Shown here: piece after piece, positions 6,625 through 21,408 of the stretch
How the letters are laid out: each line of letters begins with the position of its first letter
Numbering within the stretch: position 1 is the first letter of the stretch
NCBI RefSeq assembly: GCF_003967175.1
Contig: NZ_AP018553.1
Span: 1,785,982-1,849,981 of the forward strand
Direction of reading: 5' to 3'
Source of the DNA: Sulfodiicoccus acidiphilus
GTDB lineage: Archaea; Thermoproteota; Thermoprotei_A; Sulfolobales; Sulfolobaceae
Length of the DNA stretch: 64,000 nt
Translations under genes and position numbers: made by a program
Notes under the pieces: model-generated
Told to the model about the DNA's origin: nothing
What the model saw: the letters and a program-made list of their open reading frames with translations, nothing else
The model's database searches: none

Positions 6625-8058
6625 ATGAATTTGGTTGTGTATTGTGGGGAAGTTTACAGCTGGGTCAACATGTGCGAAAAGGTCGACCGTAAGGACTTCA
6701 CCCTGCTAAATTACGATACCGTGGAGAAGTGGCTGAAAGAGAACGGTGAGGGGGCCTACCTCATATTTGGCACTGACGTCATCCCAGTCACCGCGTTCAA
6801 CTATCCGGAGGTGCCGTTATCGGACACCCCTCTCTTCCAATTCATGAAAAGAGGCGGGACGGTAATTTGGGCGGGGGACGTCCCCTTCTATTATTCTGAA
6901 AACGGCGGAAAGAAGGTTGAGAGCAAACTCAATCCATTTCCATTCGATACACTTAACTTCGCAGATAAGGTGATGTTCGAGGACCCCCAGAACAGCCTCG
7001 TGGGCGAACTGATGGAGTACAGACCTGTCGAATCCTGGAGGCCGGTGCAGGGCCACCCGTCTCTCATACCAGTCAGTTACAAGCTAAACCCCCAAGGTTC
7101 CATCACTCTCTACTACTCCACCTGGATCTATAGGTACGGGAAGGGATCCTTCGTCAGACTCTACGATTCTAAATACGTCGATTTCAAATATCTTCTCTCC
7201 CTACCTGAAAGGATGGCGAAGTTGAACGAGGGGATCAGGATAAGGAACTTCAGGAAGCTCCGTAACCTCCTACTCAAGTTCCCTAAATTCAAGGTGATGG
7301 TGTTGATAGGGGACAACAACGTAGGCAAGACCAGCGTCTTGGAGGCACTAGCCACACTGTCAGATAGACTCTTTGAAGAGAACGCTAAGAGGATCGCCAC
7401 CTATAGAGGTTTAACCCAACCCGCGTTGCCGTCCCCCACATTGCCGTTCCCAGAGTTAGTTGAGGCCTACGTGGACGGGGATTACTCGCTCAGGGTAGTC
7501 CCACCTATACTTAGGAACCCCCTGGAATCCTTAATCGTCTTCTCCACGGTTATAGAGACCGGGGGACCCACCCAGGAAGTCCTCAACGAAGTCTCGAAGG
7601 TCCTCTCTAATTTCGATCCAAACGTTTTCTACCTCTACCTTGGAGCCGGGGGAATAAGGGTCTTGTCGCTCGACAGGACGGACCGGAGGCTTTTGGATCA
7701 AGGTCAAGGTTATAGGAGCATAATGAGAGTCCTGCTGGACTACGCGATGTTCAAGCCGAAGGTCCTCCTCCTGGACGACGTTGAGGGATTCGCTCTCCAC
7801 CCGAACATGCTGGAGAAGATGTTCCACCACCTCCTCGAGATCGAATCTAGAACGATCCTGACGACTCAGAGTATGGACGTCGTATACTACTTGGCCAAGG
7901 TTTCCCTCGAAAGGGATTTCAGAGACCCCGTGATATATGTGATCCTCAAAGGGGACGACCAGGAGGTTATGACAGCCCAGGAGGTGTGGGATAGGTTGCC
8001 TTTCGAGGACCCCAGGTTCACTGCCCTGGCGAAGAGAAGAGGGAGATCGAGTGTGTGA
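6625..8058 (+). CDS. AAA (AAA_21/OLD-like) ATPase with an N-terminal GATase/ThuA-like domain
   Basis: This 477-residue protein has two parts. Residues 1 to about 200 resemble a Rossmann-type class I glutamine amidotransferase or ThuA-like domain (LIFGTDVIPVTAF, FMKRGGTVIWAGDVPFYY), without an obvious catalytic cysteine triad. From about residue 205 it is an ABC-type AAA ATPase: GIRIRNFRKLRNLL strand, Walker A GDNNVGKTS near 229-237, signature-like DQGQGYRSIMRVLLDYA, Walker B KVLLLDDVEGFALHP near 375-390 and a TTQSMDVVYY switch region. The DD in Walker B replaces the usual DE. The gene starts leaderless and is followed after 12 bases by a Toprim-like partner, an arrangement known from OLD, Gabija, PARIS and related defence systems. 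A role in anti-viral defence is inference; the N-terminal fusion is unusual. Confidence 0.75.
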   Translation: MNLVVYCGEVYSWVNMCEKVDRKDFTLLNYDTVEKWLKENGEGAYLIFGTDVIPVTAFNYPEVPLSDTPLFQFMKRGGTVIWAGDVPFYYSENGGKKVESKLNPFPFDTLNFADKVMFEDPQNSLVGELMEYRPVESWRPVQGHPSLIPVSYKLNPQGSITLYYSTWIYRYGKGSFVRLYDSKYVDFKYLLSLPERMAKLNEGIRIRNFRKLRNLLLKFPKFKVMVLIGDNNVGKTSVLEALATLSDRLFEENAKRIATYRGLTQPALPSPTLPFPELVEAYVDGDYSLRVVPPILRNPLESLIVFSTVIETGGPTQEVLNEVSKVLSNFDPNVFYLYLGAGGIRVLSLDRTDRRLLDQGQGYRSIMRVLLDYAMFKPKVLLLDDVEGFALHPNMLEKMFHHLLEIESRTILTTQSMDVVYYLAKVSLERDFRDPVIYVILKGDDQEVMTAQEVWDRLPFEDPRFTALAKRRGRSSV

Positions 8059-8070
8059 AGTCGATCGTAG

Positions 8071-8691
8071 GTGAGTGGCGTGGAGTTGACCCCTGAGGAC
8101 TATCACGCTAAGCTCGTTTTCGCTGACGGTAAGATGGACAGGGAGTTCATCAGGTCCGTCCTGAAAAGGAACCTCGGCCGACACTGCAGCGTCAGGCTCT
8201 TCGTCCCTGATCCCAACTTCGACGCTCACGTAGTAAGTGGAGGTAAGGGGCTGGAAGGAGTCATCCGATTCGTCAAGAGCGACCTGGACAGAGGTGAGAG
8301 AACGTTCATCGTCTTCGTCGATAAGGAGCACCTGACTTCCACTGTCGAGGCCAGCGTGGGATCTATGATGAGGAAATACGGCATGGAGCCTGTATCGAGT
8401 GAAAGGATTAGAGACTCGGTACTGGGAATTAAGGGGCGTGTAGGGAACAAAGAGTTCTCCATGTACGTAGTGGTCACCGGCTTGTGGTGCTGCATCGAGG
8501 ACGAAATACTATCCGTTCTAGTGGACGGAGTTGAGGGGAAGAGCGGTGAGGGCTGTTGTGATTACTACAAAGAAAAGAGTAGAGAGAATGGAATGGATCC
8601 GAAGAGGTCGTGGAGCAACGCCCGCGTCTCGGAGCACTTCTTTAACAAGATCGCCTCAATATTGGAGCGACTCACCGCGAACACACCCTGA
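8071..8691 (+). CDS. Toprim/DUF3226-DUF4435-like partner of the AAA ATPase
   Basis: A 206-residue protein starting with GTG 12 bases after the AAA gene, so the two form one transcription unit. The pattern fits a Toprim-like fold: an N-terminal FADGKMDREFIRSVLKR (usual consensus V-E-G-x-x-D-x-x-F), a central FIVFVDKEH strand with an acidic residue, and a late CCIEDEILSVL helix similar to the I-E-D-x-I-L segment of DUF3226. The first acidic residue is D rather than the usual E. Such proteins act as nucleases or as sensors/effectors next to AAA ATPases. The last codons and the stop lie inside a perfect 22-base tandem duplication, so the C-terminus LTANTP is repeated in the DNA downstream. Family placement is by motif only. 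Confidence 0.65.
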   Translation: MSGVELTPEDYHAKLVFADGKMDREFIRSVLKRNLGRHCSVRLFVPDPNFDAHVVSGGKGLEGVIRFVKSDLDRGERTFIVFVDKEHLTSTVEASVGSMMRKYGMEPVSSERIRDSVLGIKGRVGNKEFSMYVVVTGLWCCIEDEILSVLVDGVEGKSGEGCCDYYKEKSRENGMDPKRSWSNARVSEHFFNKIASILERLTANTP

Positions 8692-13539: not shown

Positions 13540-14110
13540 TACAGTGAAATTACATCGGGTTCTCCCCGATCGCTCCCCTCGAGGTGGGCCTGGTTTATGG
13601 GAGTAACCTCGTGGAAGTAGAAGGGAGACCCGACGAGAGTGGCGAGGCCGTACTCTATTGTACTGCGCCTACTGTTGACCGCCCCGGTGTTCCTAGCTAG
13701 GGGCCACCTGCGCAAGGAGTGGAAGCCCTCCACGGCGCGTTAAACTCCTGCTGGGAACGTTGTTGGAGAGGACCCGATAGACCAGGTAATCGTAGGGGTA
13801 GTTCGCTCCTCCCTTGAGGTGGACTAAGGTCTCGAACTCCCCCCGAGTTGAAGAACGGGCCGTCGGCTAGGAGGGTCCACGCCCACAGGTCCCTCCTCCC
13901 GGGTTCCTGTTCACGTAAGTTGGGAACTCGTCCAGCGCCCTCGCTCGAAGGGCCTTGAGGAGGCCCCGCATTTCCGCCGGGGAGGTGGACCTCGACCCTC
14001 TAGACGAGGCTGTACACGGTGGGGGTCTCCCCTCCACCCTGGAGAGGGCCCTCATGTTCGCCCCGTTCAGGTACTCCACGACGATCCTCTCCTCCCGCGG
14101 TTAAGGCAGT
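13540..14110 (-). pseudogene. Degenerate transposase-like remnant
   Basis: In minus-strand order the fragments are EERIVVEYLNGANMRALSRVEGRP (a plausible N-terminal HTH), GEFETLVHLKGGANYPYDYLVY, and NTGAVNSRRSTIEYGLATLVG. They lie in at least three frames with internal stops. Assignment to a transposase is by general pattern only; no inverted repeats were found. Confidence 0.3.
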
Positions 14111-15628
14111 AGTGGAAGCTCCTCCCGCACGTCCTCGCACCGAACTTCCTCTCGCCCCCAGAGGAGCCGTCACGTACTACCGTGTCTGGACCGCGGGAGG
14201 AGCACCTGGGCCTCGCAGACCTCCTCACCCCCACCTTCCTCGGAGAGGCGTGCCGACCTTCGCGGCCTGGACTCCCGGGACTTACGCTGCTACGGCCTGC
14301 CCGGTTCAAGTTCCACTTCCTAGGCTCGAGGTTCGAATTCTTCAGGGTCGGGAGTGGTAGTCGTACGAGGGTCGTCCCGCACTACACCGCCACCGTACGG
14401 GAACCTTTCTATGAAACTTCCGTTTTTACGCTTGAGCCAGACAATTACGCTATGACTTATCGAATGAGACGACTGCGAGAACGCTCCCCACCTCATTTCG
14501 ATAGCTAGGGCAATGACACCTACTCCCCACGAATTCGCGGGTCCCCCAGCGAGCTTCTCGAAGGAGTCTAAGGCGGATTCACCGCATCGGAGCTCTCCTC
14601 TCGGGGGCAACTATCGAAATCGCATGCCTCACGCTCCCCCTCCGTCAGGGGGATCGGGTAGACCTCAGCGTTCTAGGAGTCGCACGGGAGGACAGGCGAG
14701 CTAGTGTCGGGATCGGCCTACCTCGAGCCGCGATCCCTCGATCGTTCCAAGTGCCGTTGTGGGAACCCCCACGTGATTTCTCGGGAAAAGCGTTAGCTAT
14801 GGGGGATCTAGGACGTGACGGAAAAGCGAGCGAGATCCCCCTTCCCTCCGTATTCACTGCTCTTCTCCCCCCAGGACACTTCGTTCAGACTAACGAATCA
14901 CTTCACAGTCTCAGCATCGATCCCTAGGCTTCCATCCCCCACTGGAGGGGACATAAATTGTGTGAACTTATGTGTCAAAATGGATCTCTCTCCGAAGGCC
15001 TTACAAATCAAGTCGACTTTAACTGGTCCCAATCTTGTTCCACACCCTCCATTTCGGAGAAAACTCGGTTGGGGCCTCTCTGTAGAGCTCGACTCCTTGT
15101 TCTGCCCCGCTTCCACTGCTCGCTGAATTCCCGCCTCCGTGGGAGGTTCGGGAGTTTCCAGCGTGATCGACCCCTCTTCCTGAGGACCTTTCGTCCCCAC
15201 TTATAGGCCCTCGCACGGAGGGAGGGCTCCCAGTGCCGGACTCGACCTCGTCTGATTTCGATGGCCGCCTACAAGAGCCGAGTAACGTTGTTAAGGCTCG
15301 AACCTCGAACGACCCTTAACTTGGCACTTCCCATCGTACTGACCTCCTCCCTGGAGGGGTTCCCTTCTGGAGAGCTCGTAGTTCCCATCGTCGATTCGGG
15401 TACATCTCTCTCGGCGGCAGCCTAGCGGATCAGAGGACCACCCCATCTGAAGACGCGGGGGACTTTCCTCCAGTCCCTTGAAGGAGACGCTTGTTGCCCC
15501 TTCCGTAGTCCAGGTAAGCTGTCGAGCTGGGGGAAGGAGCTCACCAGCATCGCTACGGATTTTTAGGAAAAGTATTTGAATTATCATCACCGCTCCTAGA
15601 AGGGGCGAGGCTTTCAATCTCATTAATA

Positions 15629-15686: not shown

Positions 15687-16754
15687 ATGATAAAGCGAGT
15701 GAGGCTCAAGAACTTCAAGAGCTTCGACGACGTAACGGTCGAGCTACGTAAGATCAACGTGTTCACCGGGCCTAACGGCGCCGGAAAGAGCAACTTGGTC
15801 GACGCCTTCGTCTTCTTGAAGGAGTTCCTCAGGCCGGGCTCGTTCCCTCCTTACCCCTTCATACGCTGGGGCGGCTACTCGAACCTGGTTTTCATGAAGG
15901 ACGAGAACGCCAACGTAGAGTTGGAGATCGAGGCCGAGGACTACAGCTATCGTCTGGTAGTGAACGGGAAGGACGGGCTTAGGGTATTGGAGGAGTCCCT
16001 GAAGTATAAGGAGACGGAAGTGAAAAGGAAGTACAACGAGGTGGAAATCGAGGGCAAGATACTTAACCTGGATCCGTCCATGAGCGTCTTCCACAGCGTA
16101 CAGAGGCTGGGACCTATGGTGCTCTCGAACATTCCCCTTCCCCTTCACCTGACCGACTTCATGAGCAAGTTCGGAAACGACATCGCGGTTCTGAGGCTGG
16201 AACACACCGCCTTACTACGTCCAGTCCCCTTCAACTTCCCAAACGTGCTGGGAGTAGACGGCTTCGGTCTACCCAAGGTCCTTTCCTCTCAACCGCCGAA
16301 ACCCGTTCTGGACTTCCTTTCGGAGTTCAACTTGTCCTTGAAGGTAGACGTTAGTCCGGAGGGGAACTTCGTTCTCAACCTAGTCGAGAGGGTGAACGGT
16401 GGGACGCTGGTCTTGCATCCCTCTTCCATACCCTCTGGCGTAGTGAAGATGTTGGCCATCCTTACCGCGATCTACGTGCTTAGGCCTTCTATCCTTTTAA
16501 TAGACGAGGTGGAGAACTCCCTCCACCTCAACTTCCTGGAGAGACTCGTAGACATCTTCGACTACTCAGAACCCCAGGTCGTGCTGACCACCCACTCCCC
16601 AGCCGTAATAGACTTGGTCGATCCCGCGGACGTGGTGACGATCCACAAGGAGGGAGGTAGGAGCGTCCTCCAAAGGGTTAAGGATACGACCAAACTCAAG
16701 GAGTGGCTGAGGGAGAAGGGCCTTTTGCTGAGCGAGTACTTGTACTACTCTTAG
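15687..16754 (+). CDS. AAA (AAA_21, RecF/SMC-like) ATPase, first gene of a two-gene unit
   Basis: A 355-residue ABC-type AAA ATPase. IKRVRLKNFKSFDDVTVEL is the typical N-terminal strand-loop, Walker A is TGPNGAGKSNLVDAF (residues 26-40), the middle is an insert domain, a conserved LHPSSIPSGVVKMLAILTAIY segment replaces the ABC signature, Walker B is SILLIDEVENSLHL (about 267-280) and TTHSPAVIDLV is the switch histidine region. Such proteins pair with Toprim-type or DUF4276 genes; here the partner begins seven bases after the stop. The family is widespread in mobile and defence contexts; a direct role here is inference. All key residues are present, unlike several neighbours. Confidence 0.85.
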   Translation: MIKRVRLKNFKSFDDVTVELRKINVFTGPNGAGKSNLVDAFVFLKEFLRPGSFPPYPFIRWGGYSNLVFMKDENANVELEIEAEDYSYRLVVNGKDGLRVLEESLKYKETEVKRKYNEVEIEGKILNLDPSMSVFHSVQRLGPMVLSNIPLPLHLTDFMSKFGNDIAVLRLEHTALLRPVPFNFPNVLGVDGFGLPKVLSSQPPKPVLDFLSEFNLSLKVDVSPEGNFVLNLVERVNGGTLVLHPSSIPSGVVKMLAILTAIYVLRPSILLIDEVENSLHLNFLERLVDIFDYSEPQVVLTTHSPAVIDLVDPADVVTIHKEGGRSVLQRVKDTTKLKEWLREKGLLLSEYLYYS

Positions 16755-16761
16755 CGTCCAG

Positions 16762-17259
16762 GTGGTCAGGGTGAGGATTGCGCTGCTGACGGAGGACACT
16801 CACGCGCCGTCGTTTATTGAGAAGGTGATGGAGCGATTGAAGGAAGAAGGACGTTTGAACGTCGAGGTGGTGGTCTGCAAGGGCGAGAACTCCTATAGGA
16901 AAATTCGGCCTTGTTCGGATAAGATAAGACGAATAATAAACTCGATAATAGATAAATGTGACCGAATTTTAATATTTCAAGACGCTCACGGGGAAGATCG
17001 AAGTGAAGTAGAAAGGAGAGCGCTCTCCCACCTAGAGAATTTATCTACTTATATAGGAAAAAAGATATTTATTATAATATTTGAGGAGGAAATAGAAGAG
17101 TGGATACTTCCCAACACCCCTCGTCCAGCAGACGAACTGAAAAGAAAGGAGATGTACGAGAAGTCGTCTCTCCCGTCTTACTCGAGTGAGGTGGACTTCA
17201 AGAAGCTCGATCGGGTCCGAAGTTTCAGGGATTTCCTCTACGCATTGATGGTTAGTTGA
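16762..17259 (+). CDS. DUF4276/Toprim-like partner of the second AAA ATPase
   Basis: 165 residues from GTG 16762, seven bases after the ATPase gene. The layout fits small Toprim-like proteins of the DUF4276 or DUF3226 kind: RIALLTEDTHAPSFIEKVMERLKEEG at the N-terminus with an acidic residue after the first strand, RILIFQDAHGED in the middle, and IFIIIFEEEIEEWILPNTPRP (the E-x-x-x-W-I-L segment) followed by a short C-terminal helix. Codon use in the central part (about 16920-17100) is more A/T-rich than the N- and C-terminal parts and than the ATPase gene, so the gene may have a mixed history. It likely works with the ATPase as effector; no catalytic activity is proven. Confidence 0.65.
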   Translation: MVRVRIALLTEDTHAPSFIEKVMERLKEEGRLNVEVVVCKGENSYRKIRPCSDKIRRIINSIIDKCDRILIFQDAHGEDRSEVERRALSHLENLSTYIGKKIFIIIFEEEIEEWILPNTPRPADELKRKEMYEKSSLPSYSSEVDFKKLDRVRSFRDFLYALMVS

Positions 17260-18334
17260 GGAAAGTATCGACTTCGGGCTAACGATCGAGGGTGAGGTCC
17301 TCGCCCTTCTGGAGTGGGTTCAAACTAGGGAACCTCCGTCCTGAAGCTAATCGACTTCTCAACTCTTCCCTATTTGCGTAGAAGTCGAACTCGGTTGAGG
17401 CGTCTGAACGTTGAAGGTCGTTCGAGCCGCCGGTTTACAAGGAACGTTAAAGTGGGGGTACGAGGAACTCGCGAGGAAGTCCTTCGAACGGACCACGGAA
17501 GGAGAGCGCGTAGAGTCGAGCCACGTCTACAGGTTCGCCTACAGCGACGATAACGGGCTCTACCGTACGATCCCAGTACCAGGTAGACGTGTGGCAAGAG
17601 ACGACGGAGTGTACTTAATGGAGTCCTTCGCGAAGCTCGACCTCGTTCCCGATCTTTCGTCCAGACCTTCGTTGCGTTCGCCTCTCCCACACACTCCTCG
17701 TCTGGACGGAGAACAGGAGCCCCCTGTGTGCGCGGGTCGGGGGCTCGCTCGAACGCGACCTCTACGATCCTTCCGCGCCTTCAACTCCCCGGCAGCCGGA
17801 GTTCTCCGGGACACGGGAGTGCTTGAACGATGGGAGAACACGGAAACCGACGTGCGGGTGAGGGAGAAGCACATGGGGTGCTTGAACGATGGGAGAACCG
17901 ACCACCGTTTCCTCACGTCGTCGATGTCTAGGACCGCCTGGGACTCCCCGGCTACCTCGCACCGACTTAGATCTGCTCGATTCACGAATCCCGCCTACTC
18001 CAGTTGTAAGTTCCCTCTGGCCTCAGTGATCCCCTCCCGCTACCCTGTGGCCTTCCTTTAAACGGAGGGTTGAGGAGGCCAGGTTGACTTCGACTAGGAC
18101 GGTGTGACGTTAGACGCAGCGTTGAGGTCCCAGCGCTATCGGATGCGGGGCAGCTCACCGTACATCCGTCGAGCCAATCGAGCGGGGAGAAGCTACGCCT
18201 CCCGAAGCTGGCCTACAAGAGGTTTCGTCAGTTAGTGGAGAAGGATGGACGGGGGCGACGAAGAAAGAGGTCTAAGCTTCCTAAGGTGTCCTCCACGACG
18301 CCGGCGTCCTCTGCGATCCCTCGGGTGAACTGCC
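17260..18334. other. Intergenic stretch, possible decayed coding DNA
   Basis: About 1.1 kb. The plus-strand frame 17411-18061 has a first part (KWGYEELARKSFERT, HVYRFAYSDDNGLYRTIPVPGRRV) that could be a gene fragment, then turns into arginine/serine-rich chance sequence. No family recognised. A 21-base perfect repeat at 17819-17839 and 17879-17899 is listed separately. Confidence 0.35.
17819..17899 (+). repeat. Spaced direct repeat, 21 bases, 60-base period
   Basis: GTGCTTGAACGATGGGAGAAC occurs at 17819-17839 and again at 17879-17899. The bases between the copies are not obviously repeated. Non-coding context. Confidence 0.8.
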
Positions 18335-18670
18335 TTGTTAAGTTTTTTGTCACCTAGGTCACTCATTACTGTGGTAACTAAGCACTACAAAGTCAACGTG
18401 GAGCTCAGGAGTTCGTTTTGGGACAAGGAGTACCTGAAGAAAAGCGCGGAACAAGTGTTCAACCTGGACTTAGAACCAGTGATAGTCGAGGGGAAGACGC
18501 TCTCCTTCAGGCTAAGGCACGACAGGCCGTTGAAGAACCGGGAGGTGAGGGGGTGCGGCGACATACTGTTCGCCACTTTGGAGGTGATCAGGGGACTGCC
18601 TTGGGCCACCATTCGCGTGTTGGAGACAGCCACCTACGAAGTGAAAGGGGGCATAGGCGGGGGGCTCTAG
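18335..18670 (+). CDS. Small hypothetical protein upstream of the HEPN-like gene
   Basis: 111 residues from TTG 18335, or 99 from GTG 18371 (VVTKHYKVNVELRSSFWDKEYLKKSAEQVF), which looks the better start. The sequence is soluble, alternating strand and helix, with NLDLEPVIVEGKTLSFRLRHDRPLKNREVRGCGDILFATLEVIRGLPWATIRVLETATYEV. I do not recognise it. Third positions are G/C-rich as in native genes. The next, broken gene begins at the base after its stop, so the two were probably one operon, and the protein may be a partner of the HEPN-like product. Confidence 0.6.
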   Translation: MLSFLSPRSLITVVTKHYKVNVELRSSFWDKEYLKKSAEQVFNLDLEPVIVEGKTLSFRLRHDRPLKNREVRGCGDILFATLEVIRGLPWATIRVLETATYEVKGGIGGGL

Positions 18671-19546
18671 GTGGGGGTGCGGGAGCGTCGACCAAGAGAT
18701 ACGAAGTCGCCGTAATCCTGGCCGTCCTAGGGGGAATCGTGGGGTACCTCCTCGGCGACACGGCCGAGAGGGTCGAGAGGCATCTGTGCGAGTACGAGAA
18801 CGTAGGTGGCGTTCCCAGTTTGCTCTACTCGTTGTGGGACTCGCGAGGCATCGAGGCTTTACGGGCTCGGAGGAACTGGAGTCCGCAGAGGAGTTCTTCG
18901 CTTTATACGTCAATTCCAAAGGTCATCCTTGCAGATACCTGGTCTTGCTCGCTTCCGCAGTGGAGGAACTGGCTAAATATATAATTATAAACTTATTAGA
19001 TGAGTATATTTTTCAACAACTAAAACAATACGTAAAGCAATATAATAGTTTGGAAGTTTCCAGAAAAGGTGGGTAGATTGACCTCTGTTTCGAAATACGT
19101 GAAGACAAGTATGGACAAATCCGACCGCGGTCACGCCTTCAAGTACGCTATAGTTTATTTGGATAGAGGTAGCCAATTCATCTAAGCAACCAAGGAGAGA
19201 GGACGTGGAAAAAATAGTGAACAGGGCCTTGGAAGTTGAACGCCTGAGGGGAACCTACCTGACGACCGCGTCTAGAGGTAGGGCAAGCGAGGACGAACTA
19301 AACGTTGTTTGTAAGGAATTAGAGGAGAGTAGTGAAATACACAATATACAAGCAGTAACGAAGTTGGTCCGATCCAGCACCGAAACGGTGGAGCAGTTAT
19401 ACGAACTAGCTGGAGTGGTCGACGATCGACGAGGAGACCCTCCACCGAGAGGCACGAGGGGGCCTCGGGGAACTGTCGCCTGGGGCCCTCGCGGAGGACG
19501 AGGAACAAGGCGAGTCACGCAAGGGAAACCTTACATATTCACGTAA
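18671..19546 (+). pseudogene. AbiV-like HEPN protein with N-terminal membrane segment, broken by several frameshifts
   Basis: Pieces in successive frames join into one protein. First piece: ASTKRYEVAVILAVLGGIVGYLLGDTAERVERHL, a single membrane helix, reachable from GTG 18671 if the G run at 18673-18677 had one more G. Second: FTGSEELESAEEFFALYVNSKGHPCRYLVLLASAVEELAKYIIINLL (to 19073), the helix pair typical of AbiV/HEPN abortive-infection proteins. Third: LTSVSKYVKTSMDKSDRGHAFKYAIVYLDRGSQF (19078-19182). Fourth: KQPRREDVEKIVNRALEVERLRGTYLTTA (from about 19187). Every junction can be repaired by one base, at least three of them in a short homopolymer (G, T and G runs near 18675, 18859, 19071). 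AbiV proteins block phage growth in bacteria; the archaeal role is inference. The end beyond about 19440 looks non-coding. Confidence 0.6.
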
Positions 19547-20620
19547 GTAATTAGAGGTGAAGTCGACACTGCCACCAGTGAGGTCAGTCCCCTAAGGTGG
19601 GGTTCACTGTTTAACGTGAATACCCCTGGCGTCCTCGCGACGAGCCCCGCTCTTCGGGGGAACCTCGAGCCCCCTTCCCAACGGAGATCCCGAGTAAGCG
19701 CTCCGTGATGCCTTGGAGAGTGGTTACGAAGGTAGCTCGGGCACGACACCCAGTACCTAGGGTTCACAACGCTTTCTGCCGAAGGTCCGAGAATTGTTCG
19801 TTTCTCCGCGAAGACTGCCGCGAGGGTGCTGACCACGTCGACGGAAGTGGACCCCCTCGATCTACGTCAAGTTGAAGTGTTGAGGCAGACGGCAACCCCC
19901 TTCGCGAAGTCGGGAACTAACGCATTCACGTCGCGTTCCCCCCTCAAGGTAGCACCACCAACGTAGGAGAGCCCTTCAGGGAGCGAACGGCTTGTCCACG
20001 GCGATGACGTTTGTGCTCGAGCGGAGTGGAACGCCGTGTCCAATAAGTCGTTCCGACCCAGTTGACCACCTCGTACGTCGCCTGGACGTCCTGTCTTCAC
20101 GAGTCCGAGAACGCGACCCAAGCTACGGCGTAGGACGAACCAGCGATGGCCTCAGAAACTCCCCCTCGACTTCGACCTCCTCTCCTCCCTGAACATCGAC
20201 GCGAGTTCCACAGTCAGAGAGGGGCAATACAACGCTTTACTTTCGAGGAACTCGTATTCACCCAACCTTCACTCCGAGGAAGGGTGGTAGAGAGCGTATC
20301 GGTCCCGAGGGACTTCCTAACTTCCTCTCCGACCTCCGCTACACTGAGGTCGACCTGCGTCCAGTGCCTCGAGGGCCCTCCGAGGGATCGACTCTAGCTC
20401 GTCCCCCTCCCTCCAGTTCGTGCTCTGGGGCACGTCCCTAAGGATGTACACGGCGTTCCTCTCCCCCAAAAAGTTAAGGACGCAGGTAGAGCACCAGGTG
20501 AGTGCGGCACCCTAGGCTTTAACGTTCAAGGGAAGGTATCAGTCAACGACGACGTTCTTTCCCTAATGAGGAAGGCTGAGGAGGGGTTCGAGGGATCTAA
20601 GGTATCGGTTAACCGCTCAT
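19547..20620. other. Intergenic stretch without recognisable gene
   Basis: About 1.1 kb after the HEPN-like gene. Frames on both strands are short or have chance-like composition. No repeat, RNA or IS end recognised. Confidence 0.4.
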
Positions 20621-20624
20621 CGTG

Positions 20625-20633
20625 TTTTATAAG
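20625..20633 (+). promoter_or_regulatory. TATA box of the DUF3782 gene
   Basis: TTTTATAAG centred 27 bases before ATG 20656 indicates a leaderless transcript and decides for that start over upstream ones. Confidence 0.6.
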
Positions 20634-20655
20634 TTCCCTGAAACGATTTCCATAT

Positions 20656-21408
20656 ATGGCGCTGAAAGCCGATTTCCTGAAGCTGTTGAGGGAGGACGAG
20701 GAGTTCAGGAAAGAGTTGACGCGATTGCTCGGAGAGTACGGTAGTCCAGGACTAAACGAATTGAGGGAAGTACTGAAGGAAGTTTTGGGCGCCGTAAACA
20801 AGCTGACTGAGGCCCAGCTAAAGTGGCAGGAGGAGATCGTGGAGTTAAGGAATAACACGGTGAAGTTGGAGGAGAGTGTGGCACAGCTTGCGGAGGCCCA
20901 GAGGAAGAGCGAGGAGAGCATGAGGGAGTTGGCCCAGGCCATGATCCAACTGACGACTAAGGTGGAAAACCTGAACAAGTCCGTGAGCAGTATGGGGCAG
21001 AGGTGGGGGGTGGACTACGAGGAACTGATCAGGGACTTCTTCCAGGACTTCGCCGAGCGAGAGGGTCTGGACTTCAGTTACGTGAATAAGTTCACCTACA
21101 AGGACGACTCCGACAAGTACGGCAAGAAGGGGAGGATATACGAGGTAGAGATCCTAGCCAAAGACGGCAAGGTGTACCTGATAGAGGTGAAGTCCTTCGT
21201 GGAGGAGGACGACGTCGAGTGGTTCGACGTAAAGACGGACATCCTAACGCAGGCCCTAAACATAACGAACCCGGTGAAGCTCATGCTCGGGGTCAACACC
21301 ACGGACGAGGCCGTCAAGGCGCCGGATGCGCTAGGGATAAGGTTGATCTACGGTGACGTAATAGAGGCGAAGAGAAAGGAGAAACCCGGAGTCCATCCCG
21401 AAACGTGA
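20656..21408 (+). CDS. DUF3782-type coiled-coil protein with PD-(D/E)XK nuclease-like domain
   Basis: About 250 residues from ATG 20656 (MALKADFLKLLREDEEFRKELTRLLG). Residues 35-115 form a long heptad-rich coiled coil with EAQxKxxEE repeats (LTEAQLKWQEEIVELRNNTVKLEESVAQLAEAQRKSEESMRELAQA). Residues 125-230 match a PD-(D/E)XK nuclease core: RWGVDYEELIRDFFQDF, then YEVEILAKDGKVYLIEVKSF with the E-x-K pair, and WFDVKTDILTQ. This architecture is the DUF3782 family, frequent in Sulfolobales and other thermophilic archaea; the function is unknown, a DNA-cleaving or DNA-binding role is expected from the fold. An upstream in-frame start at 20566 would add about 30 untypical residues and lies before the TATA box. 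Confidence 0.85.
   Translation: MALKADFLKLLREDEEFRKELTRLLGEYGSPGLNELREVLKEVLGAVNKLTEAQLKWQEEIVELRNNTVKLEESVAQLAEAQRKSEESMRELAQAMIQLTTKVENLNKSVSSMGQRWGVDYEELIRDFFQDFAEREGLDFSYVNKFTYKDDSDKYGKKGRIYEVEILAKDGKVYLIEVKSFVEEDDVEWFDVKTDILTQALNITNPVKLMLGVNTTDEAVKAPDALGIRLIYGDVIEAKRKEKPGVHPET

Follow-up and report, generated by a model that had tools for sequence, protein, structure and literature searches.

The lactococcal protein AbiV (201 aa; PF18728, HEPN_AbiV) is reported to bind the phage protein SaV and to inhibit the translation of phage proteins (PMC3231927). AbiV proteins typically lack the histidine of the Rx4-6H motif; they retain the basic residue and have another conserved histidine further towards the N-terminus, between helices 2 and 3 (Anantharaman et al., PMC3710099). 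An alternative conserved histidine also replaces that of Rx4-6H in the HEPN-T family (AF0298, PDB 2hsb; PMC3710099). HEPN-MNT toxin-antitoxin systems are built from two small adjacent genes, one of them encoding the HEPN protein. Little is known of archaeal defence systems other than CRISPR and restriction (PMC12988326).

This analysis concerns a locus of Sulfodiicoccus acidiphilus HS-1, whose chromosome is a single contig of 2,353,189 bases. The stretch analysed, called the window, comprises the 64,000 nucleotides from 1785982 to 1849981. The locus very likely consists of two genes, A and an overlapping B. Gene B is similar to AbiV in size, in the order and spacing of the EExxK, HxxK and R..Y motifs, in its incomplete classical Rx4-6H with an alternative histidine and, by comparison, in its all-helical prediction. 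Unlike AbiV, B lies below detection by the Pfam model, is confined to Sulfolobaceae and is paired with an overlapping gene that encodes its dedicated membrane-anchored partner; no operon partner of AbiV is recorded in the HEPN survey (PMC3710099). The pair resembles HEPN-MNT in its gene arrangement and in having a partner proposed as the antidote, but differs in that A contains a membrane helix and matches no nucleotidyltransferase. B shares the alternative histidine with HEPN-T, but no PDB chain was matched by its sequence, and it is associated with the membrane partner A.

Gene models of the window copy

The features of the locus are collected in Table 1. Frameshift-aware alignment placed the homology of gene A between 18380 and 18828, with one shift at about 18655-18668; for gene B, the homology extends from about 18834 to about 19412 and contains two shifts, near 19054 and 19154. 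The onset of homology at 18380 makes the GTG at 18371 the most likely start of gene A, rather than the TTG at 18335. The start of gene B would be the GTG at 18834 (or the GTG at 18786), overlapping A as in the relatives. An additional shift in B near 19405 is possible, and homology gives no support to it. The read-through protein matches homologues in five other Sulfolobaceae genomes, and thus represents more than a chance arrangement of open frames.

Table 1. Features of the A/B locus (positions in the window)
Feature	Position	Strand	Basis
Gene A, broken	18371..18828	+	Frameshift-aware alignment to gene A of G022 and G002; 11-member alignment
G-rich tract (G5, G6, G5 within 18647-18677) holding the gene A frameshift	18647..18680	+	Frameshift-aware alignment; run count
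Predicted transmembrane/glycine-zipper helix VAVILAVLGGIVGYLLGDT of gene A	18706..18762	+	Hydropathy 1.97 over 19 residues; same position in all members
Gene B, broken, putative AbiV-like HEPN protein	18834..19412	+	Frameshift-aware alignment; alignment of B proteins
EELAKY motif (invariant E-E-x-x-K-Y) of B	18963..18980	+	Alignment of seven B sequences
HAFKY motif (invariant H-x-x-K-Y) of B	19132..19146	+	Alignment of seven B sequences
RGTYL motif (invariant R-x-x-Y-L) of B, C-terminal helix	19247..19261	+	Alignment of seven B sequences

A sequence-only reading of this DNA had described a single membrane-anchored HEPN gene, broken at several homopolymers and preceded by a small conserved protein at 18335-18670. 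The pieces that it named, in successive frames, were all found where it had put them: the membrane helix, the EELAKY helix, the D-R-G-H-A-F-K-Y segment and the C-terminal R-x-x-Y-L helix. Their assignment to genes has to be redrawn. The small protein and the membrane helix form one gene (A) in all ten relatives having gene A, and the anchor belongs to this partner; no segment of B reaches the transmembrane threshold in a hydropathy scan. The locus does contain multiple breaks, namely one in A and two in B, but the junction at 18859 is the natural change of frame between A and B, which is seen as an overlap in the relatives. An origin at homopolymers fits the first shift, in the G5/G6/G5 tract; only one AAAA lies near the second, and no run of at least four bases near the third. 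The idea of a conserved partner came out stronger than it had been claimed, with overlapping genes in both subtypes of the module.

In the relatives from ten Sulfolobaceae genomes, gene A is a single open reading frame of 148-170 aa (152-170 aa in G004, G023, G002, G006 and G022; genomes are given here by G numbers and loci by L numbers). The 11 aligned sequences are 26-87 percent identical to the first. They share a layout of a soluble alpha/beta domain, a Gly-rich linker, the glycine-zipper transmembrane helix and a CEYEN..G.P tail. The N-terminal 95 residues or so alternate between strand and helix (E-H-E-H-E) in an AF2 model of low confidence (pLDDT 49). In every member, a stretch of 19 residues reaches a transmembrane score, always at the same site; in three of them, another stretch, within the soluble domain, does so marginally. 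The alpha/beta domain would be cytoplasmic. The GxxxG pattern of the helix gave weak Pfam glycine-zipper matches, and no nucleotidyltransferase family is present among the Pfam matches of five intact A proteins. Gene B of the relatives encodes a soluble protein of 165-188 aa in a separate frame that overlaps A.

Probable remote kinship of gene B to AbiV-type HEPN proteins

Six B sequences from relatives were aligned with the read-through copy of the window, and these seven share 11 invariant residues (L37, E42, E43, K46, Y47, H73, K76, Y77, R110, Y113 and L114). These give the AbiV site pattern EExxKY, HxxKY and RxxYL, and the classical Rx4-6H is absent. B thus has the traits by which AbiV proteins are recognised: a retained arginine (R110), loss of the Rx4-6H histidine, an alternative histidine (H73) and acidic residues (E42, E43) in what would be helix 2, the helix positions being inferred. 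By comparison with the HEPN survey (PMC3710099), the histidine of HAFKY may be the alternative active-site histidine, and the arginine of RGTYL may be that of the degenerate Rx4-6H site. Members of subtype II also have a histidine about six residues after an arginine, which is not conserved.

Curated models do not reach this protein. PF18728 matched neither the read-through protein, for which the sequence-only reading had proposed such a search, nor three intact B proteins nor the S. acidiphilus genome, and B is not filed as a member of that family. Searches of Pfam, NCBIfam, PHROGs, PADLOC and PDB sequences returned no significant match to A or B, only weak glycine-zipper hits, and the pair is named in none of the four curated libraries.

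For a comparison at profile level, 13 archaeal AbiV proteins were collected with the Pfam HEPN_AbiV model and used for hhalign and as an HMM. In hhalign, B aligned to the archaeal AbiV proteins in register at all three motifs, with a score of 28.1 and an E-value of 9e-4, at a probability of only 23 percent, which drops to 7 percent once fragments are added. The controls scored about half as high (14.2 for the best of 60 shuffles, 13.1 for the reversed sequence). With the archaeal AbiV HMM, the B proteins ranked at the top among 205 open reading frames and their reversals, together with a frame at L056. This frame (L056:1-339 of G013, minus strand, ended by the edge of the locus) was the best-scoring control and itself looks HEPN-like.

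The proposed likeness to AbiV therefore stands as remote kinship, carried by the motif layout and by a profile comparison that rises above shuffled sequences. On these grounds, B is probably a remote AbiV-type HEPN protein; it would then have a HEPN fold and might act as an RNase. The novelty that the sequence-only reading had supposed, for a membrane-anchored archaeal version, does not hold for archaeal AbiV as such: among 398 Thermoproteota genomes, 15 have a match to Pfam HEPN_AbiV above the cut-off. What varies here is the combination of an AbiV-type HEPN with a dedicated membrane-anchored partner.

Distribution, intactness and genomic neighbourhood

Profile searches covering the class (229 genomes) found gene A with confidence in ten genomes besides S. 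acidiphilus, and B in Sulfolobaceae only. A search for B across 398 genomes of the phylum gave no confident member outside this family, to which the module is limited within the genomes searched. No match to the module was present in viral contigs, plasmids or phages. Profile scans of a genome-contig collection with the A and B alignments also gave none, and near relatives may have been left out of that collection. A weak match (G002:C38, L017, E 5e-5) that the read-through protein alone produced was disregarded.

A and B are adjacent and overlapping in nine genomes, broken B copies counted, and fall into two subtypes. Wherever the two genes are adjacent, the start of B falls within A, and in several genomes A is preceded by TATA-like elements; the pair is thus probably read as one transcript with coupled translation. 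The two genes differ in how well they are kept: A is intact at 10 of 11 loci and B at 5 of 13 (Fisher p 0.011, for loci that are few and related, not independent). Intact B was found in G023, G004, G013, G030 and G009. It is broken, truncated or fragmentary at the other eight loci, which are those of G000, G002 (near the C-terminus), G006, G015 and G003 and the second sites of G004, G013 and G023. B is never intact without A; G022 and G027 retain an intact A with no B. Such a pattern would be expected from a costly toxin with a harmless antidote, although it is no proof of that reading. The intact copies are under purifying selection (dN/dS 0.09-0.30).

The neighbours of the module vary. Upstream of it in the window (15687-17259), an intact AAA_21 ATPase (AbiLi/AriA/mad3-like by PADLOC) and then a MAD4-like small protein are encoded, 7 bases apart. 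Their homologues in G004 (L062:1016-2622), with identities of 42 and 38 percent, also form a pair, near the broken second B copy, and longer AAA_21 ATPases are found near the module in G002, G006 and G004. G009 has Cas10b/Cmr2 and another gene of a type III-B CRISPR operon (L058:16-3866), and the module follows them about 2 kb downstream. A defence-gene neighbour is missing at some loci; the AAA_21 ATPase was considered as a fixed third component and rejected, being absent from several loci. In G013, G030 and G015, homologues of the window genes 6625-8058, 8071-8691, rmlD or rmlA near the module suggest a shared chromosomal region.

Proposed mechanism and competing explanations

How might such a pair work? 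Tentatively, and with slightly less than even confidence, B is proposed to act as an effector, either an RNase-type toxin or an agent of abortive infection, and A to be the cognate protein that neutralises B or serves as a sensor. A would be tethered to the membrane by its single glycine-zipper helix, would be made together with B by coupled translation and, if the two bind each other, would keep B inactive at the membrane. B would be set free if A were lost or disturbed, for example by a virus, and would then cut host or viral RNA and stop growth. By analogy with SaV binding and translation inhibition by the lactococcal AbiV, an infection-triggered HEPN effector is plausible for B, and the pair may serve in defence. 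The fully specified form of this proposal, a Sulfolobaceae-specific antiviral toxin-antitoxin whose glycine-zipper partner tethers an AbiV-type HEPN RNase to the membrane until a virus disturbs membrane or partner and so releases the RNase, is on present evidence unlikely. A coupled membrane-anchored partner gives a testable idea of what might silence an AbiV-type HEPN before infection. The Sulfolobaceae include genetically tractable species with laboratory viruses, and several members carry intact copies.

The neighbourhood also leaves room for a cellular role. A and B could form a membrane complex outside defence, such as a regulator of surface glycans or of the envelope, with B as a non-catalytic HEPN-like helical protein. 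The rmlD/rmlA/rmlB-type genes adjoining the module in G015, the glycosyltransferases near it in G004 and G015, the recurrence of homologues of 6625-8691 in three genomes and the persistence of A without B in two others would all suit such a complex. A housekeeping complex would not usually be patchy in its occurrence, lose B to decay so often or have defence-type neighbours, and the invariant H, R and E residues of B look catalytic; this explanation is regarded as improbable. The roles within an antiviral or toxin pair could also be exchanged, with A as a membrane-damaging effector acting through its glycine-zipper helix and B as the regulator. The helix does resemble oligomerising membrane segments and has weak Pfam glycine-zipper matches, but in five genomes A is intact without intact B, B having been lost, which is the opposite of what a toxic A predicts. 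This exchange of roles is very improbable.

The proposal of B as effector and A as neutraliser concerns the module as found in other species, since the copy in the window is probably dead. With one real frameshift in A and two in B it would be a relic, provided that the assembly, made from PacBio reads only, is correct at these sites. PacBio RS II was the only read source for this genome (PMC6647314) and the shift in gene A falls within G runs, so that assembly errors might have broken a module that is intact in S. acidiphilus. Such errors would have had to survive a read depth of about 650-fold (1.54 Gb of reads over 2.35 Mb; PMC6647314), and the third shift (about 19154) lies outside any homopolymer. 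The neighbouring genes of 355, 165, 280, 295 and 345 aa are all open, the sequences on both sides of the module appear decayed as well, gene B is broken in further species, and 244 pseudogenes have been published for the genome (PMC6647314). Assembly error is therefore quite unlikely, and bears on the state of this copy rather than on the mechanism. The dead relic that the sequence-only reading had considered is thus the likely state in S. acidiphilus and does not extend to other species, in which intact copies exist.

Some further features of the window were observed around the module. A high-GC stretch of about 1.5 kb at 14019-15126, with no convincing gene, lies upstream of the ATPase pair. 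The flanks of the module (17260-18335 and 19546-20560) are without a long open frame and probably hold more decayed genes. An open piece of one decayed gene (17411-17660) resembles, at 42 percent, the C-terminal part of a DUF3782/PDDEXK-like protein; the intact protein is encoded at 20566-21408, and the A/B module lies between the two.
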